Source: an uncultured Bacteroidota bacterium (lineage in GTDB: Bacteria; Bacteroidota; Bacteroidia; Flavobacteriales; Flavobacteriaceae). Taken from it: a DNA stretch of 64,000 nt. A program made the translations under genes and the position numbers. The notes under the pieces were generated by a model. The model worked only from the letters and a program-made list of their open reading frames with translations. It ran no database searches and was not told where the DNA came from. Numbering within the stretch: position 1 is the first letter of the stretch; each line of letters starts with the position of its first letter. Shown here one piece after another: positions 697 to 62,209 of the stretch. The DNA lies in NCBI GenBank assembly GCA_902595825.1, contig CACJRP010000003.1:1-64000 (forward strand). The letters are read 5' to 3'.

Positions 697-1964
697 AATC
701 TTAATTTGATTTGAAAATTCTCAAAATCTAGTTTTTGTTCAGAATTATTATCCATAGAAAAACTTTTAGATAAATTTAAAAATAGACCAGCAGATACTTT
801 TTTTGAATTATAAAAATTTGAGCCGAATTCAACAAATGGTTTTACAAAGAGACCGTCAAACTCATTATTCTCCCTTAATTTAAATATACTCGAACCAATT
901 TTTTGTTCACCATAGAGGATATGGCTAATCCCAGAACCAGCACTAACATCAAAATTTATCAGATTGAAAATTCGAAATGTCTCTAACGAAAAATATAAAT
1001 TTGTTCCCAAATATGATGTATTCCAATCGTATGAAACATTACCGTCCCCTCCAATTGCATTGTACTGATTCAGTGATAAAGAAGCAGAAAAAAGGAGTTT
1101 TAAAAAAAGTAACTTAAAATTAAAAATACCTCTTTTCCCAATTTCAAAATCAAGACCATCTGAGGACAAAACATTTGGATTTGCGTTTCCTAAACTATTT
1201 GTGAAGTCATATCTTGTTATACTTCTTCCTATCGATATAAACACCCCCGATTTTTCCTTCTCTTCTAATTGATTTTTTTTTATTTCAAGATCATTATTAT
1301 TCTGATCTTCGTTAGAATTTTCTAAAGAATCCGACTTTAGAGAATTATTTTCCAAGGGTAGAATTTTATCTTCATTAGTTATTTCATCGTCTCCTTTTTC
1401 TAATTCCTTTTGATTTGATTCTTCAGTCGGATTTATTTCATTTTGGTTAAATAAATTTTCATCAAGCGTATTTTTTTCTTTAATAGTCTCATCTATTTCT
1501 TCATTTATTTGTGAATTATCCTCCTTCCTTTCTTCTTCTTCCTCTTTGGATTCAATTTCATCCAATTCAGTATTATTTATTTCATTAGTATTTTCATCTA
1601 AACTTTCGGTCGATTGTATCAAGTTTTTTTTGGGAAAGGAAAATTGATACCACAAGTCATTTGTTTTTAAATCATTATCAATTACAAATTTTTCAGCAGT
1701 AATTAAATCCTTAAATGTGCCAACAGAAACTCTGTAGAAACCGTTTTTAACTTCTAATATCTCTGTTCTTTCAAATCCCTTTTGTTTTAATTTTTGTTTA
1801 AGATTGATAGCATTATACTGGTATTTGAAAGATCCTAAAATCACTCTTACCAATTTCCTTACAACTACTTCCTTATCTTCATTACTTGTATTAAAATCTT
1901 GAGCTTGTAGGTGAAAAAAACCTATAAAAAAGATAAAACAATAAAGCTTTTTTACTAGTCGCAT
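684..1964 (-). CDS. SPOR-domain protein with acidic linker and C-terminal outer-membrane beta-barrel-like region
   Basis: Signal peptide; SPOR-like 'RVILGSFKYQYNAINLKQKLKQKGF..NGFYRVSVGTFKDLITAEKF'; E/N/D-rich linker; alternating-hydrophobic C-terminus. Confidence 0.65.
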   Translation of the reverse strand: MRLVKKLYCFIFFIGFFHLQAQDFNTSNEDKEVVVRKLVRVILGSFKYQYNAINLKQKLKQKGFERTEILEVKNGFYRVSVGTFKDLITAEKFVIDNDLKTNDLWYQFSFPKKNLIQSTESLDENTNEINNTELDEIESKEEEEERKEDNSQINEEIDETIKEKNTLDENLFNQNEINPTEESNQKELEKGDDEITNEDKILPLENNSLKSDSLENSNEDQNNNDLEIKKNQLEEKEKSGVFISIGRSITRYDFTNSLGNANPNVLSSDGLDFEIGKRGIFNFKLLFLKLLFSASLSLNQYNAIGGDGNVSYDWNTSYLGTNLYFSLETFRIFNLINFDVSAGSGISHILYGEQKIGSSIFKLRENNEFDGLFVKPFVEFGSNFYNSKKVSAGLFLNLSKSFSMDNNSEQKLDFENFQIKLRLCVN

Positions 1965-8890: not shown

Positions 8891-9463
8891 ATGAAACTAA
8901 AAACTTTAACATACATAATATTCTTAATTACAGTACTTTCTAGTAATGTTTATTGTCAAGACCTCATACTTGATAACATAAATAGTTCAATTAAATGGAC
9001 TGGAAAGGAAATAACTACAAAAACTCACTATGGTTCATTAAAGTTTGAAGAAGGAAAAATTAGCATGAAAGGAAAAAAAATTATAAGTGGTAAGTTCATA
9101 GTTGATATGAAATCCATAGATTGTGAAGATCTTTCAGGAAAATCCAAAAATTATCTTGAGTCACATTTAAAGTCCGAAGATTTTTTTGGAGTCGAAGATT
9201 ATCCTAAAGCTACTTTATCTATAAAAACCTCTGAATTAAAAAGTGATGGAAATCAGCTCGTAGAAGGTGATATAACAATAAAAGGAATTACTCAACCTAT
9301 AAGTTTTAATATTTTGATTCAAAATAAGGAAGGAAAAGCCAAATTGACCTTTGACAGAACAAAGCACAATGTTACCTATAGATCAGGCAATTTTTTCCAA
9401 AATCTAGGTGATAAATTAATATACGATGATATTGAAATAGAAGCTAGATTAACTTTTAATTAA
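8891..9463 (+). CDS. YceI family periplasmic protein
   Basis: Signal peptide; 'SSIKWTGKEITTKTHYGSLKF', 'GDITIKGITQPISFNI'. Confidence 0.85.
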   Translation: MKLKTLTYIIFLITVLSSNVYCQDLILDNINSSIKWTGKEITTKTHYGSLKFEEGKISMKGKKIISGKFIVDMKSIDCEDLSGKSKNYLESHLKSEDFFGVEDYPKATLSIKTSELKSDGNQLVEGDITIKGITQPISFNILIQNKEGKAKLTFDRTKHNVTYRSGNFFQNLGDKLIYDDIEIEARLTFN

Positions 9464-9489
9464 AAAGTTAAATTGTTTAAATTTTAATA

Positions 9490-9497
9490 TATATTTG
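9490..9497 (+). promoter_or_regulatory. Bacteroidota -7 promoter element (TATATTTG) for the trp leader
   Basis: Exact TAnnTTTG; candidate TTG at 9473-9475 with a short 14-nt spacer. Confidence 0.6.
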
Positions 9498-9501
9498 CAG
9501 C

Positions 9502-9549
9502 ATGAAAATTTTTATTTTTAAATGTTGGTGGTTTTATATGGATTTATAA
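9502..9549 (+). CDS. trpL: trp operon leader peptide MKIFIFKCWWFYMDL
   Basis: 16-codon ORF with tandem Trp codons (9526-9531) directly before the attenuator and trpE. Confidence 0.88.
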   Translation: MKIFIFKCWWFYMDL

Positions 9550-9551
9550 AT

Positions 9552-9610
9552 TCGTGAAAACAATCTCTATTTTTATTTATTGGCTTGTCATCACGACAGG
9601 CTTTTTTATT
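9552..9610 (+). promoter_or_regulatory. trp attenuator: antiterminator and Rho-independent terminator
   Basis: Terminator GCTTGTC(9583-9589)/GACAGGC(9595-9601) followed by TTTTTTATTT; antiterminator TCGTGA(9552-9557)/TCACGA(9591-9596) plus ACAA(9560-9563)/TTGT(9585-9588). Confidence 0.87.
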
Positions 9611-9620
9611 TGAATACGAC

Positions 9621-11024
9621 TTGAAAAAAATAAAGTTTAAAACATATCACAAAAAAATTCTTTCAGATAAACTAACTCCCGTTAGCATTTATTTGAAACT
9701 TAGGGACAGATTTGCAAATAGTCTACTTCTTGAAAGCAGCGATTACGATGTTAACAATAAAAACTTTTCCTATATATGTTGCGAGCCAATAGCATCTATA
9801 AGTATAAGAAATAGAGAAATAACTTACACTTACCCAAGTCAAAAAAAAATAACTACAAAATTCAAAAAAAATGATAGTATCCCATTATTGATAGAAAAAT
9901 TTTCTAAAAAATTTGATTATAATCACAAAAAATACAGCTTCGTAACTAATGGGCTTTTTGGATATATTTCGCACGAAACCATATCACATTTTGAAGATCT
10001 AGATTTAGACAAAAATAAAGATAATATAGAAATACCAGATTTATATTATGCTGTTTATAAATACATAATTTGTATAAGCTTATTTAATCACGAGGCACAT
10101 ATTTTCTGCCACTCAGTAAATGGTGAAAACGACATTAGCGTTATTAATAAACTTTTAATAAGTGATATACCAACAAATTATTCTTTTACTAAAAAAGGCA
10201 AAAAAGTTTCAAATTTTACTGATAAAGAGTTTATTGATCTAGTAAAAAAAGGAAAGGATCATTGTTTTAGAGGAGATGTTTTCCAGATAGTTTTATCAAG
10301 AAGGTTTTCTCAAAGTTTTTATGGAGACGAATTTAATGTCTATAGAGCATTGAGGTCTATTAATCCATCTCCATACCTTTTTTTCTTTGATTACGGAAGC
10401 TTTAAAATTTTTGGTAGTTCTCCGGAAGCACAGATAATAATTGAAAATCGAAGAGCCGAAATACACCCCATAGCAGGAACATTCAAAAGAACAGGAAATG
10501 ACATTAAAGACAAAGAGTTAGCAGAAAAGTTGAAAAAAGATCCTAAGGAAAATAGTGAACATGTCATGCTTGTAGACCTGGCCAGAAACGATTTAAGTAG
10601 AAATGGAACTGAGGTCAAAGTTGAAAAAAACAGACAAATACAATTTTTTTCACATGTTATTCATCTTGTTTCAAAGGTGACAGGAAAACTAAATCCTTTA
10701 ACCAATAATTTTCAGGTTGTTGCTGACACATTTCCCGCTGGTACTTTATCAGGTGCTCCAAAACACATGGCTTTAAAACTTATTGATAAGTATGAAAATA
10801 TTGCAAGAAATTTTTATGGAGGTGCATTAGGTTATTTTGATTTTGAAGGAAATTTTAATCATTGCATTATCATTAGATCTTTTCTAAGTAAAAATCAAAT
10901 TATTCATTACCAAGCAGGTGCGGGTGTTGTTGCAAAATCGAAACCAAAAAAAGAGTTGGAAGAAGTATACAATAAATTGGGAGCTTTGGAAAAAGCATTG
11001 GAAATAGCTGAAAAAATAACATGA
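9621..11024 (+). CDS. trpE: Anthranilate synthase component I
   Basis: Chorismate-binding motifs 'GSSPEAQIIIENRRAEIHPIAGTFKR', 'DTFPAGTLSGAPKHMA'; TTG start at 9621 preferred because the track start (9585) lies inside the terminator stem. Confidence 0.9.
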   Translation: MKKIKFKTYHKKILSDKLTPVSIYLKLRDRFANSLLLESSDYDVNNKNFSYICCEPIASISIRNREITYTYPSQKKITTKFKKNDSIPLLIEKFSKKFDYNHKKYSFVTNGLFGYISHETISHFEDLDLDKNKDNIEIPDLYYAVYKYIICISLFNHEAHIFCHSVNGENDISVINKLLISDIPTNYSFTKKGKKVSNFTDKEFIDLVKKGKDHCFRGDVFQIVLSRRFSQSFYGDEFNVYRALRSINPSPYLFFFDYGSFKIFGSSPEAQIIIENRRAEIHPIAGTFKRTGNDIKDKELAEKLKKDPKENSEHVMLVDLARNDLSRNGTEVKVEKNRQIQFFSHVIHLVSKVTGKLNPLTNNFQVVADTFPAGTLSGAPKHMALKLIDKYENIARNFYGGALGYFDFEGNFNHCIIIRSFLSKNQIIHYQAGAGVVAKSKPKKELEEVYNKLGALEKALEIAEKIT

Positions 11025-11584
11025 AAAAAATATTTGTAGTTGATAATTACGACTCTTTCACTTACAATCTAGTTCACATATTAAGGGACTTAAATTGTAA
11101 TCTTGAGGTTAAAAGAAATGATGACTTTAACTTAGATGAAATAAATGGTTATGATTACATTCTTTTGTCGCCTGGTCCAGGAATACCAAAAGAATCGGGT
11201 TTATTGAATGAAGTAATTAAAAAATATCACAAGACTAAAAATATTTTGGGAGTATGTTTGGGAATGCAAGCAATAGGGGAAGTTTTTGGTGGTGAAATTG
11301 AGAATTTAAAAAATGTATATCATGGAGTTGAAACAAGCATTAAAATCATCAATCACAAAAAATTATTTCTAGATATTCCTGAAAATATAATGGTGGGAAG
11401 ATATCATTCATGGGTTGTTAAGCATCCCTTACCAAGTTGTCTTATTGCAACATCCTTTGATAAGAACGGTTATCTAATGTCCCTTAGACACAAAAACTAC
11501 AATGTCTCTGGGGTTCAATTTCATCCTGAATCAATATTGACAAAATATGGGAAAAAAATTCTTCAAAATTGGATAAATGATTAA
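11021..11584 (+). CDS. trpG: Anthranilate synthase component II (glutamine amidotransferase)
   Basis: 'VDNYDSFTYNLVHIL', 'LLSPGPGIPKESG', 'GVCLGMQAIGE', 'GVQFHPES'. Confidence 0.95.
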   Translation: MKKIFVVDNYDSFTYNLVHILRDLNCNLEVKRNDDFNLDEINGYDYILLSPGPGIPKESGLLNEVIKKYHKTKNILGVCLGMQAIGEVFGGEIENLKNVYHGVETSIKIINHKKLFLDIPENIMVGRYHSWVVKHPLPSCLIATSFDKNGYLMSLRHKNYNVSGVQFHPESILTKYGKKILQNWIND

Positions 11585-12572
11585 TATGAAAAAAACTTTA
11601 GAAAAATTAATATCAAAAGAATATCTAACCGCCTCTGAGGCTGAAAAATGCCTTATTGAAATAACTGAAGGAAAACATCATGATATTCTCGTGTCATCTT
11701 TTTTGACAACTTTTATGATGAGAACAGTATCTATAGAAGAGTTAAATGGTTTTAGAAATGCATTACTTAATTTGTGCATTAAGGTAGATTTGTCCGATTA
11801 CGATACAATTGATTTGTGTGGTACGGGGGGAGATGAAAAAAATACTTTCAATATTTCAACTTTGTCATCTTTTATAACTGCTGGTTCGGGAATTAAAGTT
11901 GCAAAGCATGGTAATTATGGCATTTCTTCGAATTGCGGATCAAGTAATGTCCTGGAATTTTTAGGGATTAGATTTTCCAATGATGAAAGTTACTTAAAAA
12001 ATTGCATCGATAAAGCTGGAATATGTTTTCTTCACGCGCCATTATTTCATCCAGCTATGAAAAATGTAGCTTCTGTTAGAAAAAATTTAGGAATCAAGAC
12101 TTTTTTTAATATTTTGGGTCCGCTTGTAAATCCTGTTAATCCTAAAAATCAACTTACTGGTGTTTATAACCTAGAAACTGCAAGATTGTATGGCTATTTT
12201 TTTCAACAAACAAATAAAAACTACGCAATTACTTATTCATTAGACGGCTACGATGAAATTTCTCTGACTGGCCCAACAAAATTGATTCGAAATTCTGGAG
12301 AGTTTATTTTCGATCCTCATCATTTTGGGTATAAAATTATAACAAAGGAATCCATAAGTGGAGGAAGTAGTGTAGAAAATTCGGCCTTTATTTTCAAATC
12401 TATATTAGAAGGAAATGGTTCTAAGGAGCAAAATAATGTTGTTTGCGCTAATGCAGCGATGGCAATATCTACATCTACAAATTTAGATATTGATGAATCT
12501 ATAAAATTAGCTGAGGATTCATTGTATAATAAAAAAGCTCTCAAATCCTTTGAAAAACTAGTTAAAATTTAA
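11577..12572 (+). CDS. trpD: Anthranilate phosphoribosyltransferase
   Basis: 'DLCGTGGDEKNTFNIST', 'KHGNYGISSNCGSSNVLE'. Confidence 0.95.
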   Translation: MINMKKTLEKLISKEYLTASEAEKCLIEITEGKHHDILVSSFLTTFMMRTVSIEELNGFRNALLNLCIKVDLSDYDTIDLCGTGGDEKNTFNISTLSSFITAGSGIKVAKHGNYGISSNCGSSNVLEFLGIRFSNDESYLKNCIDKAGICFLHAPLFHPAMKNVASVRKNLGIKTFFNILGPLVNPVNPKNQLTGVYNLETARLYGYFFQQTNKNYAITYSLDGYDEISLTGPTKLIRNSGEFIFDPHHFGYKIITKESISGGSSVENSAFIFKSILEGNGSKEQNNVVCANAAMAISTSTNLDIDESIKLAEDSLYNKKALKSFEKLVKI

Positions 12573-12574
12573 AT

Positions 12575-13366
12575 ATGTCTATATTAAAAAATATTGTAAT
12601 TGACTTAAAAAAAGAACTGAAACTTAAAAAAAGTATTATTCCCGTTTCTGAATATGAAAAAATGTCCCTTTTTGCAAGAAATACAATTTCAATGAGTGAT
12701 TCAATTAAAAAGAATAATTTTGGAATTATAGCTGAATTCAAAAGACGTTCTCCATCAAAAAATGAAATTAATAATAAATTATCTGTTCATGAAGTTTGCA
12801 GAAACTATCAAATTTTTGGTGCAAGCGGATTATCGATATTAACTAATTTAAAGTATTTTGGAGGGAGCTTGGAGGACTTAGCATTAGCCAGATCTGCTTG
12901 CACTTTGCCCATATTAAGAAAAGATTTTATAATTGATGAATATCAAATTTATGAGGCTAAAGCCTTTGGTGCTGATACTATTTTACTCATATCTTCAATA
13001 CTTACAAGAGACGAAATAGCCAATTTGTCAAAAAAAGCAAAAGAGTTGAATTTAGAGGTTCTTTTAGAAGTTCATAATAATGAAGAATTAAAAGAAGGGT
13101 TAGTTGAGCACGTGGACATTATAGGAGTAAACAACAGAAATCTGAAATCTTTCAAAACTGATATACAAATTAGTGAAAAACTTTTCAATCAAATACCCAA
13201 TAAATTTTTAAAAATTTCTGAAAGTGGGCTGAATAACGATAATTCAATAAAAAAATTAAAGAAAATTGGATACCAAGGGTTTTTGATAGGAGAAAAGTTT
13301 ATGGTATCCAGTGATCCAGGTAAAGAGTTAAAAAAAACTTTAGAAAATTTAACTTATGAAAATTAA
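12575..13366 (+). CDS. trpC: Indole-3-glycerol phosphate synthase
   Basis: 'IIAEFKRRSPSK', 'PILRKDFIIDEYQIYEAKAFGADTILLI', 'GVNNRNLKSF'. Confidence 0.95.
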   Translation: MSILKNIVIDLKKELKLKKSIIPVSEYEKMSLFARNTISMSDSIKKNNFGIIAEFKRRSPSKNEINNKLSVHEVCRNYQIFGASGLSILTNLKYFGGSLEDLALARSACTLPILRKDFIIDEYQIYEAKAFGADTILLISSILTRDEIANLSKKAKELNLEVLLEVHNNEELKEGLVEHVDIIGVNNRNLKSFKTDIQISEKLFNQIPNKFLKISESGLNNDNSIKKLKKIGYQGFLIGEKFMVSSDPGKELKKTLENLTYEN

Positions 13367-13985
13367 AATTTGTGGTTTGAAGTTTGAATCAAATATTATA
13401 AGTCTTTCTAAATTAGAACCTGATTACATGGGTTTTATTTTTTGGAATAAATCAAAAAGACATGTCAAAGGTTCCACTCCAAATCTCTCAGAAACCAAAA
13501 TAAAAAAAACAGGGGTTTTTGTAAATGCTGATTTTGAAAATATTAAGGCAAAAACTTATGGTCATAAATTAAAGGCAATTCAACTTCATGGGCAAGAATC
13601 TCCTGAATTTTGCAAAAAAATAAAGAATTTAGGAGTTGAAATTATTAAAGCTTTTAGTGTTGATGAAAATTTTAATTTTGATATTTTGGAAAAGTATGAC
13701 TTGTTTAGTGATTATTTTTTATTTGACACAAGAGGGAAATCTCCTGGTGGAAATGGTATTTCCTTCAACTGGGAGATTTTAAGAAATTATAAATACAAGA
13801 AAAAGTTTTTTCTAAGTGGAGGTATAGGTCTAGAAAGCGTTGATGCAATAAAAAAAATAAAAAATCTTGACATACCCTTGTTCTGCATTGATATAAATAG
13901 CAGATTCGAATTAAATCCAGGAAAAAAAAATATAGAATTGATTAAATCTTTTAAAAATAATTTAGAAAATGAAATACAAAGTTGA
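13356..13985 (+). CDS. trpF: Phosphoribosylanthranilate isomerase
   Basis: 'MKIKICGLKFESNI', 'DYMGFIFWNKSKRHV', 'LHGQESPEFC', 'FLSGGIG'. Confidence 0.93.
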   Translation: MKIKICGLKFESNIISLSKLEPDYMGFIFWNKSKRHVKGSTPNLSETKIKKTGVFVNADFENIKAKTYGHKLKAIQLHGQESPEFCKKIKNLGVEIIKAFSVDENFNFDILEKYDLFSDYFLFDTRGKSPGGNGISFNWEILRNYKYKKKFFLSGGIGLESVDAIKKIKNLDIPLFCIDINSRFELNPGKKNIELIKSFKNNLENEIQS

Positions 13986-15150
13986 CGAAAAAGGTTTCTA
14001 TGGCAATTTTGGAGGTGCATACATTCCTGAAATGCTATATCCCAATATAAATGAATTAAAAGTAAATTATCTTAAAATAATAAACTCAAAAAACTTTAGA
14101 AAAGATTTCGAAAAATTATTAGCTGAATACGTAGGGAGACCAACTCCTTTATATTTTGCTGAACGGCTTTCCGAAAAATACAACACAAAAATTTACTTAA
14201 AAAGAGAGGACCTCTGTCATACTGGAGCTCACAAAATAAACAATACTATTGGACAAATTTTGTTAGCCAAAAGCTTAAATAAAAAAAGAATTATTGCTGA
14301 GACAGGAGCCGGACAGCACGGAGTTGCTACGGCAACAGTGTGTGCATTAATGGGAATTGATTGTGTAATATACATGGGCGAGGTTGATATTAAACGTCAA
14401 GCACCAAACGTGGCACGAATGAAAATGCTTGGTGCGCAGGTAAAAGAGGCAAAATCCGGAAGTAAAACTCTAAAAGATGCGACTAATGAAGCAATGAGAG
14501 ATTGGATTAATAATCCAAAAGATACTCATTATATTATTGGTTCGGTTGTTGGTCCACATCCTTATCCAGATATGGTTTCACGTTTACAATCTGTAATTAG
14601 TGAAGAGGTTAAGACACAACTTTTAGAAAAAGAAGGTAGAAATTACCCAGATTACCTTATCGCATGTGTTGGTGGCGGAAGTAATGCGGCAGGTCTTTAT
14701 TATCATTATTTGAATAATAAAAAAGTAAAAATAATAGCAGTTGAAGCAGCTGGTAAAGGAATTAATTCTGGTAAAAGTGCAGCAACAATTAAATTGGGTA
14801 AGATTGGAATTATGCACGGTAGTAAAACATTACTTATGCAAAACGAAGACGGACAAATAATTGAACCTTATTCTATTTCAGCAGGTTTAGATTATCCTGG
14901 TATTGGTCCTCTTCATTCTCATATGTATGAGACAAAAAGAGCAAAATTTGTTTCAGTTAATGATAATGAGGCGATGGATTGGGGGCTAACTTTATCTCAG
15001 ATAGAAGGAATTATACCTGCAATTGAAACTGCCCATGCATTTTCAATTTTGGATACAATGGTTTTCAAAAAAAATGATGTGCTCGTTTTTAATTGTTCTG
15101 GAAGAGGTGACAAGGATTTAGAAACTTACATAAAATACTTTAAACTTTAA
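13969..15150 (+). CDS. trpB: Tryptophan synthase beta chain
   Basis: 'KREDLCHTGAHKINNTIGQ', 'AETGAGQHGVATATVCALMG', 'VGGGSNAAG'. Confidence 0.97.
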   Translation: MKYKVDEKGFYGNFGGAYIPEMLYPNINELKVNYLKIINSKNFRKDFEKLLAEYVGRPTPLYFAERLSEKYNTKIYLKREDLCHTGAHKINNTIGQILLAKSLNKKRIIAETGAGQHGVATATVCALMGIDCVIYMGEVDIKRQAPNVARMKMLGAQVKEAKSGSKTLKDATNEAMRDWINNPKDTHYIIGSVVGPHPYPDMVSRLQSVISEEVKTQLLEKEGRNYPDYLIACVGGGSNAAGLYYHYLNNKKVKIIAVEAAGKGINSGKSAATIKLGKIGIMHGSKTLLMQNEDGQIIEPYSISAGLDYPGIGPLHSHMYETKRAKFVSVNDNEAMDWGLTLSQIEGIIPAIETAHAFSILDTMVFKKNDVLVFNCSGRGDKDLETYIKYFKL

Positions 15151-15911
15151 TGAATCGAATAGAGAAGAAATTAAAGGAAGAAGAAAAAATACTATCAGTT
15201 TATTTTACTGCTGGTTTTCCTAGATTGGATGATACTTTAGAAATTATATCGAAACTAGAAAAGTCTAATGTAGATTTAATTGAAGTTGGGATTCCTTTTT
15301 CTGACCCTCTGGCTGACGGAGAAACTATCCAAAGAAGTTCAAAAAAAGCAATTGGAAACGGTATGACAATACATAAACTCTTTACTCAACTAAAACATTT
15401 AAGAAAAACGGTGAAAATTCCAGTCATACTTATGGGATATTTAAACCCTATTATGCAATTTGGAATTGAAAAATTCTGTCTGAAATCTAAAGAAATTGGT
15501 GTCGATGGATTAATTATCCCCGATCTTCCTATTGAGATATTTCTTGAAGAATACTTTGACCTATTTAATAAGATAAATCTATTTAATATTTTTTTAATAA
15601 CACCTCAAACCTCTGAAGAAAGGATTAAATTAATAGATAGAAATTCAAAAGGGTTTATCTATATGGTGAGCAGTTCTTCAATAACAGGGTCTAAGAAGAA
15701 CTTGGAGGATACAAGCTTTAAATATTTTGATAAAATTTCAAAAATGAATTTAAATAATCCCACGATTGTTGGATTTGGTATAAGCAATCGTAAGACTTAT
15801 GAAAAAGTTATTAGGAAGAGTAAGGGTGCAATAATAGGTTCATCCTTCATTAATTTTATTGAACAAAATAGTTTAGATAATATAGGAGAATTTATAAAAA
15901 AGTTTAGATGA
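15150..15911 (+). CDS. trpA: Tryptophan synthase alpha chain
   Basis: 'LSVYFTAGFPRLDDT', 'IEVGIPFSDPLADGETIQRSS', 'VSSSSITGSK'. Confidence 0.95.
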   Translation: MNRIEKKLKEEEKILSVYFTAGFPRLDDTLEIISKLEKSNVDLIEVGIPFSDPLADGETIQRSSKKAIGNGMTIHKLFTQLKHLRKTVKIPVILMGYLNPIMQFGIEKFCLKSKEIGVDGLIIPDLPIEIFLEEYFDLFNKINLFNIFLITPQTSEERIKLIDRNSKGFIYMVSSSSITGSKKNLEDTSFKYFDKISKMNLNNPTIVGFGISNRKTYEKVIRKSKGAIIGSSFINFIEQNSLDNIGEFIKKFR

Positions 15912-62100: not shown

Positions 62101-62200
62101 TTTATTTGCTTTCAGGAAGGATTTGAAGATTACTTTTGAAAGCAATTCTGCTTTAGCATTTTTTTTTCGAGGTTTGCAATCAGACAAATCCTTCCTCGTA
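62101..62200 (-). promoter_or_regulatory. SAM-II-like riboswitch with downstream expression platform
   Basis: P1 CGAGG(62194-62198)/CCTCG(62168-62172); conserved-looking AUUGCA and GCUAAA; pseudoknot UUGC(62176-62179)/GC(U)AA and UCUG/CAGA; alternative helices described in findings. Confidence 0.82.
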
Positions 62201-62209
62201 ATTTTTTTG

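Follow-up and report, generated by a model that had tools for sequence, protein, structure and literature searches.

The trp leader of Escherichia coli is the classical attenuator. In the Bacteroidota, the Bacteroid-trp element (Rfam RF01692) was described by comparative genomics as a cis-regulatory RNA (PMC2864571; Weinberg et al. 2010) and has been noted ahead of the trp operon of Flavobacterium psychrophilum (PMC6414381), a species for which leader-peptide attenuation of amino-acid operons has also been proposed (PMC9723704). In Sinorhizobium meliloti, a member of a different phylum, the leader RNA starts at the ATG of the 14-codon trpL, attenuates trpE(G) and has been shown to have trans-acting roles (PMC7298713). 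The window analysed here is a 64,000-nucleotide stretch of DNA from an uncultivated marine flavobacterium. Directly ahead of its complete trpEGDCFBA operon, which forms one tight run to position 15911, there is an element that is very probably a ribosome-mediated transcription attenuator of that operon; tryptophan synthesis in this organism would then be regulated by a switch of known kind.

Like Bacteroid-trp, the window element is located before trpE and has a leader with Trp codons. It differs in having two adjacent Trp codons (WW) and not the usual three (WWW), a different segment 1 and a shorter linker; in addition, the RF01692 model stops at the 5' arm of the terminator and does not include the antiterminator. 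With the E. coli trp leader it shares adjacent Trp codons, mutually exclusive 1:2/3:4 and 2:3 pairings and a terminator before trpE, but there is no sequence homology between them, the window antiterminator recruits, besides the 5' arm, the terminator loop and the first part of the 3' arm, and the window leader has a predicted leaderless start with no Shine-Dalgarno region. What the element would share with S. meliloti trpL is a start at the leader ATG and the attenuation of trpE; that system differs in its phylum and in having had trans-acting roles shown for it.

A search of the locus with Rfam gave no match at the gathering threshold. For RF01692, which has a gathering cut-off of 49 bits, a full-length alignment over 9479-9606 scored 20.5 bits (E 4.7 in a 201-base search). 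In 79 of the 121 family genomes the orthologous leader, likewise aligned over the full length of the model, scored above this cut-off, and the scores of such leaders were graded from 84.8 bits down, via 36.9 (G020) and 31.9 (G082), to 25.8 in a member of the window's genus (G066). A covariance model (R1) built from 48 relatives, with the window and its genus left out, found the window element at 49.9 bits (E = 1.9e-9), and the next match in the whole genome reached 18.4 bits. The element occupies the same genomic place as the members above the cut-off and is homologous to them; on these two grounds it is orthologous to the Bacteroid-trp elements, even though it does not pass the formal test of Rfam. 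The Rfam model thus misses divergent members, with about one third of the family genomes under the cut-off though the element is present at almost all trpE loci. Weak Rfam matches to rseX, ctRNA_pT181, JA04 and SNORND104 at the locus were attributed to chance, the similarity being to a terminator plus a U-rich stretch. Some RF01692 matches of about 33 bits and below, in G042, G120 and G053, were not near trp genes; none of these had a Trp leader, and they were discarded.

Within positions 9490-9609 the order of parts was promoter box, leader, segment 2 (TCGTGA, 9552-9557), A+T-rich linker and terminator (Table 1). The short ORF with Trp codons that the first-pass annotation had reported was present, and dinucleotide shuffling of the window's upstream region produced a WW mini-ORF by chance in 0.16% of cases. 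All folding was carried out with 37 C parameters, and the leader RNA folded at -23.1 kcal/mol (z = -2.9 against shuffles; 1/200 shuffles). The terminator, previously noted as a 3:4 stem with a T tract, was confirmed as eight pairs (9582-9589/9595-9602) around a loop at 9590-9594, and was the one terminator-like site at the locus, compared to 0.2 in shuffles. The antiterminator TCGTGA-AA-ACAA was also found as proposed, with 9552-9557 paired to 9591-9596, 9560-9563 paired to 9585-9588 and a 2x2 internal loop between them; its segment 3 overlaps the 5' arm, the loop and the first bases of the 3' arm of the terminator. The possible 1:2 pairing had been given as five pairs, 9531-9535/9557-9561. 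These pairs were present, but the fold of 9502-9620 continued the helix through 9537-9544/9549-9556 to 13 pairs with one bulged A. A 1:2 hairpin was located at the same position in near relatives, with its sequence changed. As had been remarked, the program-made ORF list started trpE inside the terminator stem, at TTG 9585; the homologous start is TTG 9621, where the alignments of relatives begin. The best NCBIfam match of trpE was TIGR00564, under the cut-off of that family.

Table 1. Coordinates of the attenuator, the trp operon and related leaders (window positions unless a locus is named).
Feature	Position	Strand	Details
-7 promoter box TATATTTG	9490..9497	+	matches Bacteroidota TAnnTTTG; predicted start 9502, the A of the leader ATG
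Leader ORF MKIFIFKCWWFYMDL	9502..9549	+	15 codons, ATG 9502, stop TAA 9547-9549; read from sequence
Trp sensor, two adjacent Trp codons	9526..9531	+	from sequence; last Trp codon to segment 2, 23 nt
Segment 1	9531..9544	+	pairs 9531-9535/9557-9561 and 9537-9544/9549-9556; fold of 9502-9620
Segment 2, TTCGTGAAAACAA region	9549..9563	+	core TCGTGA 9552-9557, second block ACAA 9560-9563; pairs with segment 1 or segment 3
Segment 3	9585..9596	+	TTGT 9585-9588 and TCACGA 9591-9596; duplex -11.0 kcal/mol
Intrinsic terminator GGCTTGTC-ATCAC-GACAGGCT and T tract	9582..9609	+	-10.2 kcal/mol; T tract 9603-9609
trpE, anthranilate synthase component I	9621..11024	+	start TTG 9621; Pfam PF00425, PF04715
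trpG, trpD, trpC, trpF, trpB, trpA	11021..15911	+	ORFs, Pfam, NCBIfam
Phe/Tyr leader-peptide attenuator	51731-51604	-	box TAGATTTG, leader MRTITTTTSYYLYFYFNNL (ATG 51714), terminator 51623-51604
Lys-rich leaders	L110 1516-1625; L126 ~1430-1490	-	without Trp codons; G022 and G090, no trpE
WWW leader MRKLTLNTTWWWHSLKQACCFAIGIY	L111 ~1500-1690	+	before stand-alone TrpB-like gene; G054, no trpE ortholog
Orphan WWW leader MKKLQLNMWWWKHEIFIS with terminator	L109 1489-1601	-	G056, no trpE ortholog; no trp gene downstream

TrpE was found in 121 family genomes, some of them incomplete, and the upstream DNA was read for 108 full trpE loci. A leader ORF with WW or WWW was located directly upstream of trpE in 104 of these; in two of the exceptions (G089, G044) it was displaced by an inserted ORF, one was cut by a contig end with the Trp codons still visible, and one (G035) was without the element. 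When the two displaced cases were included, the element was present at 106/108 loci, although such counts overstate the number of events, the relatives not being independent observations. With ATG starts only, the leader was found in 101 of 107 loci compared to 0.24 expected from shuffles, and in a separate named set, which spans single-cell and metagenome marine Flavobacteriaceae, Candidatus Arcticimaribacter, Leeuwenhoekiella and Flavobacterium, it was found in 77 of the 78 loci with enough flank. The pattern TCGTGA-N-GGCTTGTC-N-CACGACA was present as a single copy in each of 79 of the 121 genomes (backward control, 0); by coordinates, all matches were ahead of trpE save in G022 and G090. 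The first-pass annotation had named conservation in relatives as the check on its reading, and Trp codons, antiterminator and terminator were all conserved. The terminator does sit between trpE and a YceI-like gene (8891-9463) on the same strand, and it could be a plain intrinsic terminator that insulates trpE from that gene, with the mini-ORF present by chance. This explanation is highly improbable, since it does not account for WW leaders in 104/108 loci, their fixed spacing or the compensated antiterminator, and the upstream genes vary among relatives while the attenuator stays. At the two displaced loci (L115 and L116, from G089 and G044, respectively), the ORF or remnant between the attenuator and trpE resembled, by eye, a small GIY-YIG endonuclease.

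The spacing between the last Trp codon and segment 2 was 21 or 22 nt in 74 of 83 loci, a constancy to be expected of a spacing that measures a ribosome. The TGA within TCGTGA served as the stop codon in many relatives, and in 40 loci the start of segment 2 preceded the stop by 3 nt. Segments 2 and 3 changed together (TTTGTCGCAAT/ATTGCGACAAG, TGCGATGA/TCATCGCG, TCGCGA/TCGCGA, GCGAG/CTCGC and GGATTCA/TGAATCC), and the predicted antiterminator pairing is kept through these compensatory changes; it is on this evidence that the antiterminator, which the Rfam model lacks, is now defined. The mean antiterminator helix score was 16.6 compared to 10.2 for shuffled linkers, with 1.7% of shuffles reaching 16.6. 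For the 21 most divergent loci the score was 15.0 for a locus's own pairing and 12.3 for cross-locus pairing, a gain that was only moderate because the terminators remain alike. The terminator arms also covaried, with double changes in 5/9 pairs, and the region from the Trp codons to the terminator gave, on average, more stable folds than shuffles did (mean z -1.55, standard error 0.12, n = 95). Of the six core pairs of the antiterminator, the genus mates had lost one (TCGTGT). RNAalifold on a MAFFT alignment recovered the terminator only, due to the mutually exclusive nature of the 1:2 and 2:3 helices and the poor alignment of the linker; pairing was therefore tested locus by locus.

The pattern of conservation also bears on whether the RNA might bind a metabolite or a protein, as a riboswitch or through a TRAP-like regulator, with the ORF incidental. 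The 5' region is structured, and Bacteroid-trp is listed by Rfam among the cis-regulatory RNAs (PMC2864571). However, conservation was concentrated on the run of consecutive Trp codons, on how far these lie from segment 2 and on the complementarity of segments 2 and 3, rather than on an aptamer-like core; the leader residues that flank the Trp codons varied freely and the peptide was otherwise poorly conserved. A binding RNA is thus a most implausible reading of the element.

To model attenuation, the ribosome was assumed to cover 12 nt past the start of the A-site codon. With segment 1 masked by a stall at the second Trp codon (RNA free from 9542), the antiterminator probability was 0.99-1.00 for nascent ends at 9594-9600, 0.55 at 9601 and 0.06 at 9602, by which point the terminator arm has been completed. 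A ribosome placed at the stop codon allowed the terminator alone to form. These modelled positions agreed with the earlier proposal that a stall at WW frees segment 2 and that a ribosome at the UAA masks it. For the full-length RNA at equilibrium, the terminator won even when segment 1 was masked (antiterminator 0.04), and the model therefore needs co-transcriptional timing. In the window without a ribosome, the antiterminator still reached up to 0.64 at one nascent length, which means that the 1:2 hairpin does not keep the switch strictly off by default. Across 95 loci the mean antiterminator probabilities were 0.95-0.99 for the stalled ribosome, 0.04 for the ribosome at the stop codon, 0.39 for no ribosome and 0.29 for shuffled linkers. 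At L005 and L097 the stop codon was so far upstream that segment 2 stayed beyond the reach of the modelled ribosome.

The anatomy of the element, its conservation, its compensatory pairing and its modelled folding under masking are demonstrated by these results. The locus has the parts that define the attenuator class, namely an ORF with adjacent Trp codons before a trp gene, a terminator between that ORF and trpE, and an exclusive, compensated antiterminator; masking of segments 1 and 2 by the ribosome was obtained in the model, with the assumed footprint. We infer that transcription would begin at, or 1-2 nt from, the leader ATG. If charged tRNA-Trp were scarce, the ribosome would stall at the two Trp codons and cover segment 1, leaving segment 2 free to pair with the emerging segment 3; the terminator would come too late and the polymerase would read into trpEGDCFBA. 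If tryptophan were plentiful, the ribosome would reach the UAA at 9547-9549 and cover segment 2, and the terminator at 9582-9609 would form and end transcription. The 3'-terminal bases of the transcript are hidden within the polymerase, which would therefore clear the T tract while the antiterminator holds. The switch therefore looks kinetic, with the antiterminator winning in the model only while the 3' arm is incomplete.

The TAnnTTTG box occupies positions -12 to -5 (PMC9723704), and start sites were predicted from that position. The promoter was called by consensus alone, without a -33 match; no TTG was seen at the usual -33 spacing, the nearest (9473-9475) being 14 nt off. Sigma-70 TTGACA/TATAAT sites, which are not the relevant promoter type, occurred at the locus at chance level only. 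The first-pass annotation had regarded a start downstream of 9550 as evidence against attenuation; the only promoter box was upstream of the leader ORF, with a predicted start at 9502. The box was 0-18 nt (as predicted UTR) ahead of the leader in 99 of 104 relatives. Predicted UTR lengths were bimodal across all loci, with peaks near 0-1 and 13-14 nt, and were 0-2 nt in the loci most like the window (L128-L160 with enough flank), a group that L146 fits only if a GTG start is taken. This comparison predicts that the trp leader ORF is leaderless across the window's marine clade. In F. psychrophilum just 5.5% of mRNAs are leaderless (PMC9723704). The idea of a leaderless leader is not itself new, since S. 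meliloti is already known to have a leaderless trpL (PMC7298713).

In two genomes that have no trpE (G022 and G090), the trp-type platform was located ahead of a lysC-like aspartokinase. The in-frame leaders, which have non-ATG starts, read ...NKKDKKVHLRRTS and ...KQKDKKIYLRRMS, and these two cases suggest that the platform was re-tuned to lysine; the Lys-leader pattern was found in none of 392 further genomes of the order. It is tentatively proposed, as an idea that may well prove wrong, that the leader forms a portable module: the marine-clade trp leader ORF would be translated leaderless, with the stalling ribosome loaded at the RNA 5' end, and the platform would have been re-tuned to lysine before aspartokinase where trpE was lost. 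The orphan leader of G056 may be a relic or a small RNA. Its retention with a terminator, together with a predicted leaderless start like that of rnTrpL, the 5' end of which is the trpL ATG (PMC7298713), raises the question of whether the leader RNA released by termination, or the leader peptide, has a further role in trans, like rnTrpL/peTrpL of S. meliloti. Such a role is unlikely, given that the orphan may be a mere remnant within an incomplete genome and that the peptide is poorly conserved outside the Trp codons.

The second, Phe/Tyr attenuator of the window was located directly before a prephenate dehydratase-like gene (pheA, 51584-50763), next to which were genes for an aminotransferase, a prephenate dehydrogenase-like protein and a DAHP synthase/chorismate mutase-like protein, all named from their ORF sequences. 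It resembles the trp leader in its promoter box, a leader rich in the product amino acids, its terminator and its biosynthetic operon, and differs in the amino acids and in sequence; the R1 model also matched it (E = 0.075). An F/Y-rich leader was present before pheA in 22 of the 24 genomes examined. A structured pheA 5' element, with no Rfam family, has been mentioned for F. psychrophilum (PMC9723704). The window also carries a SAM-II riboswitch on the minus strand, at 62143-62203 (73.6 bits).
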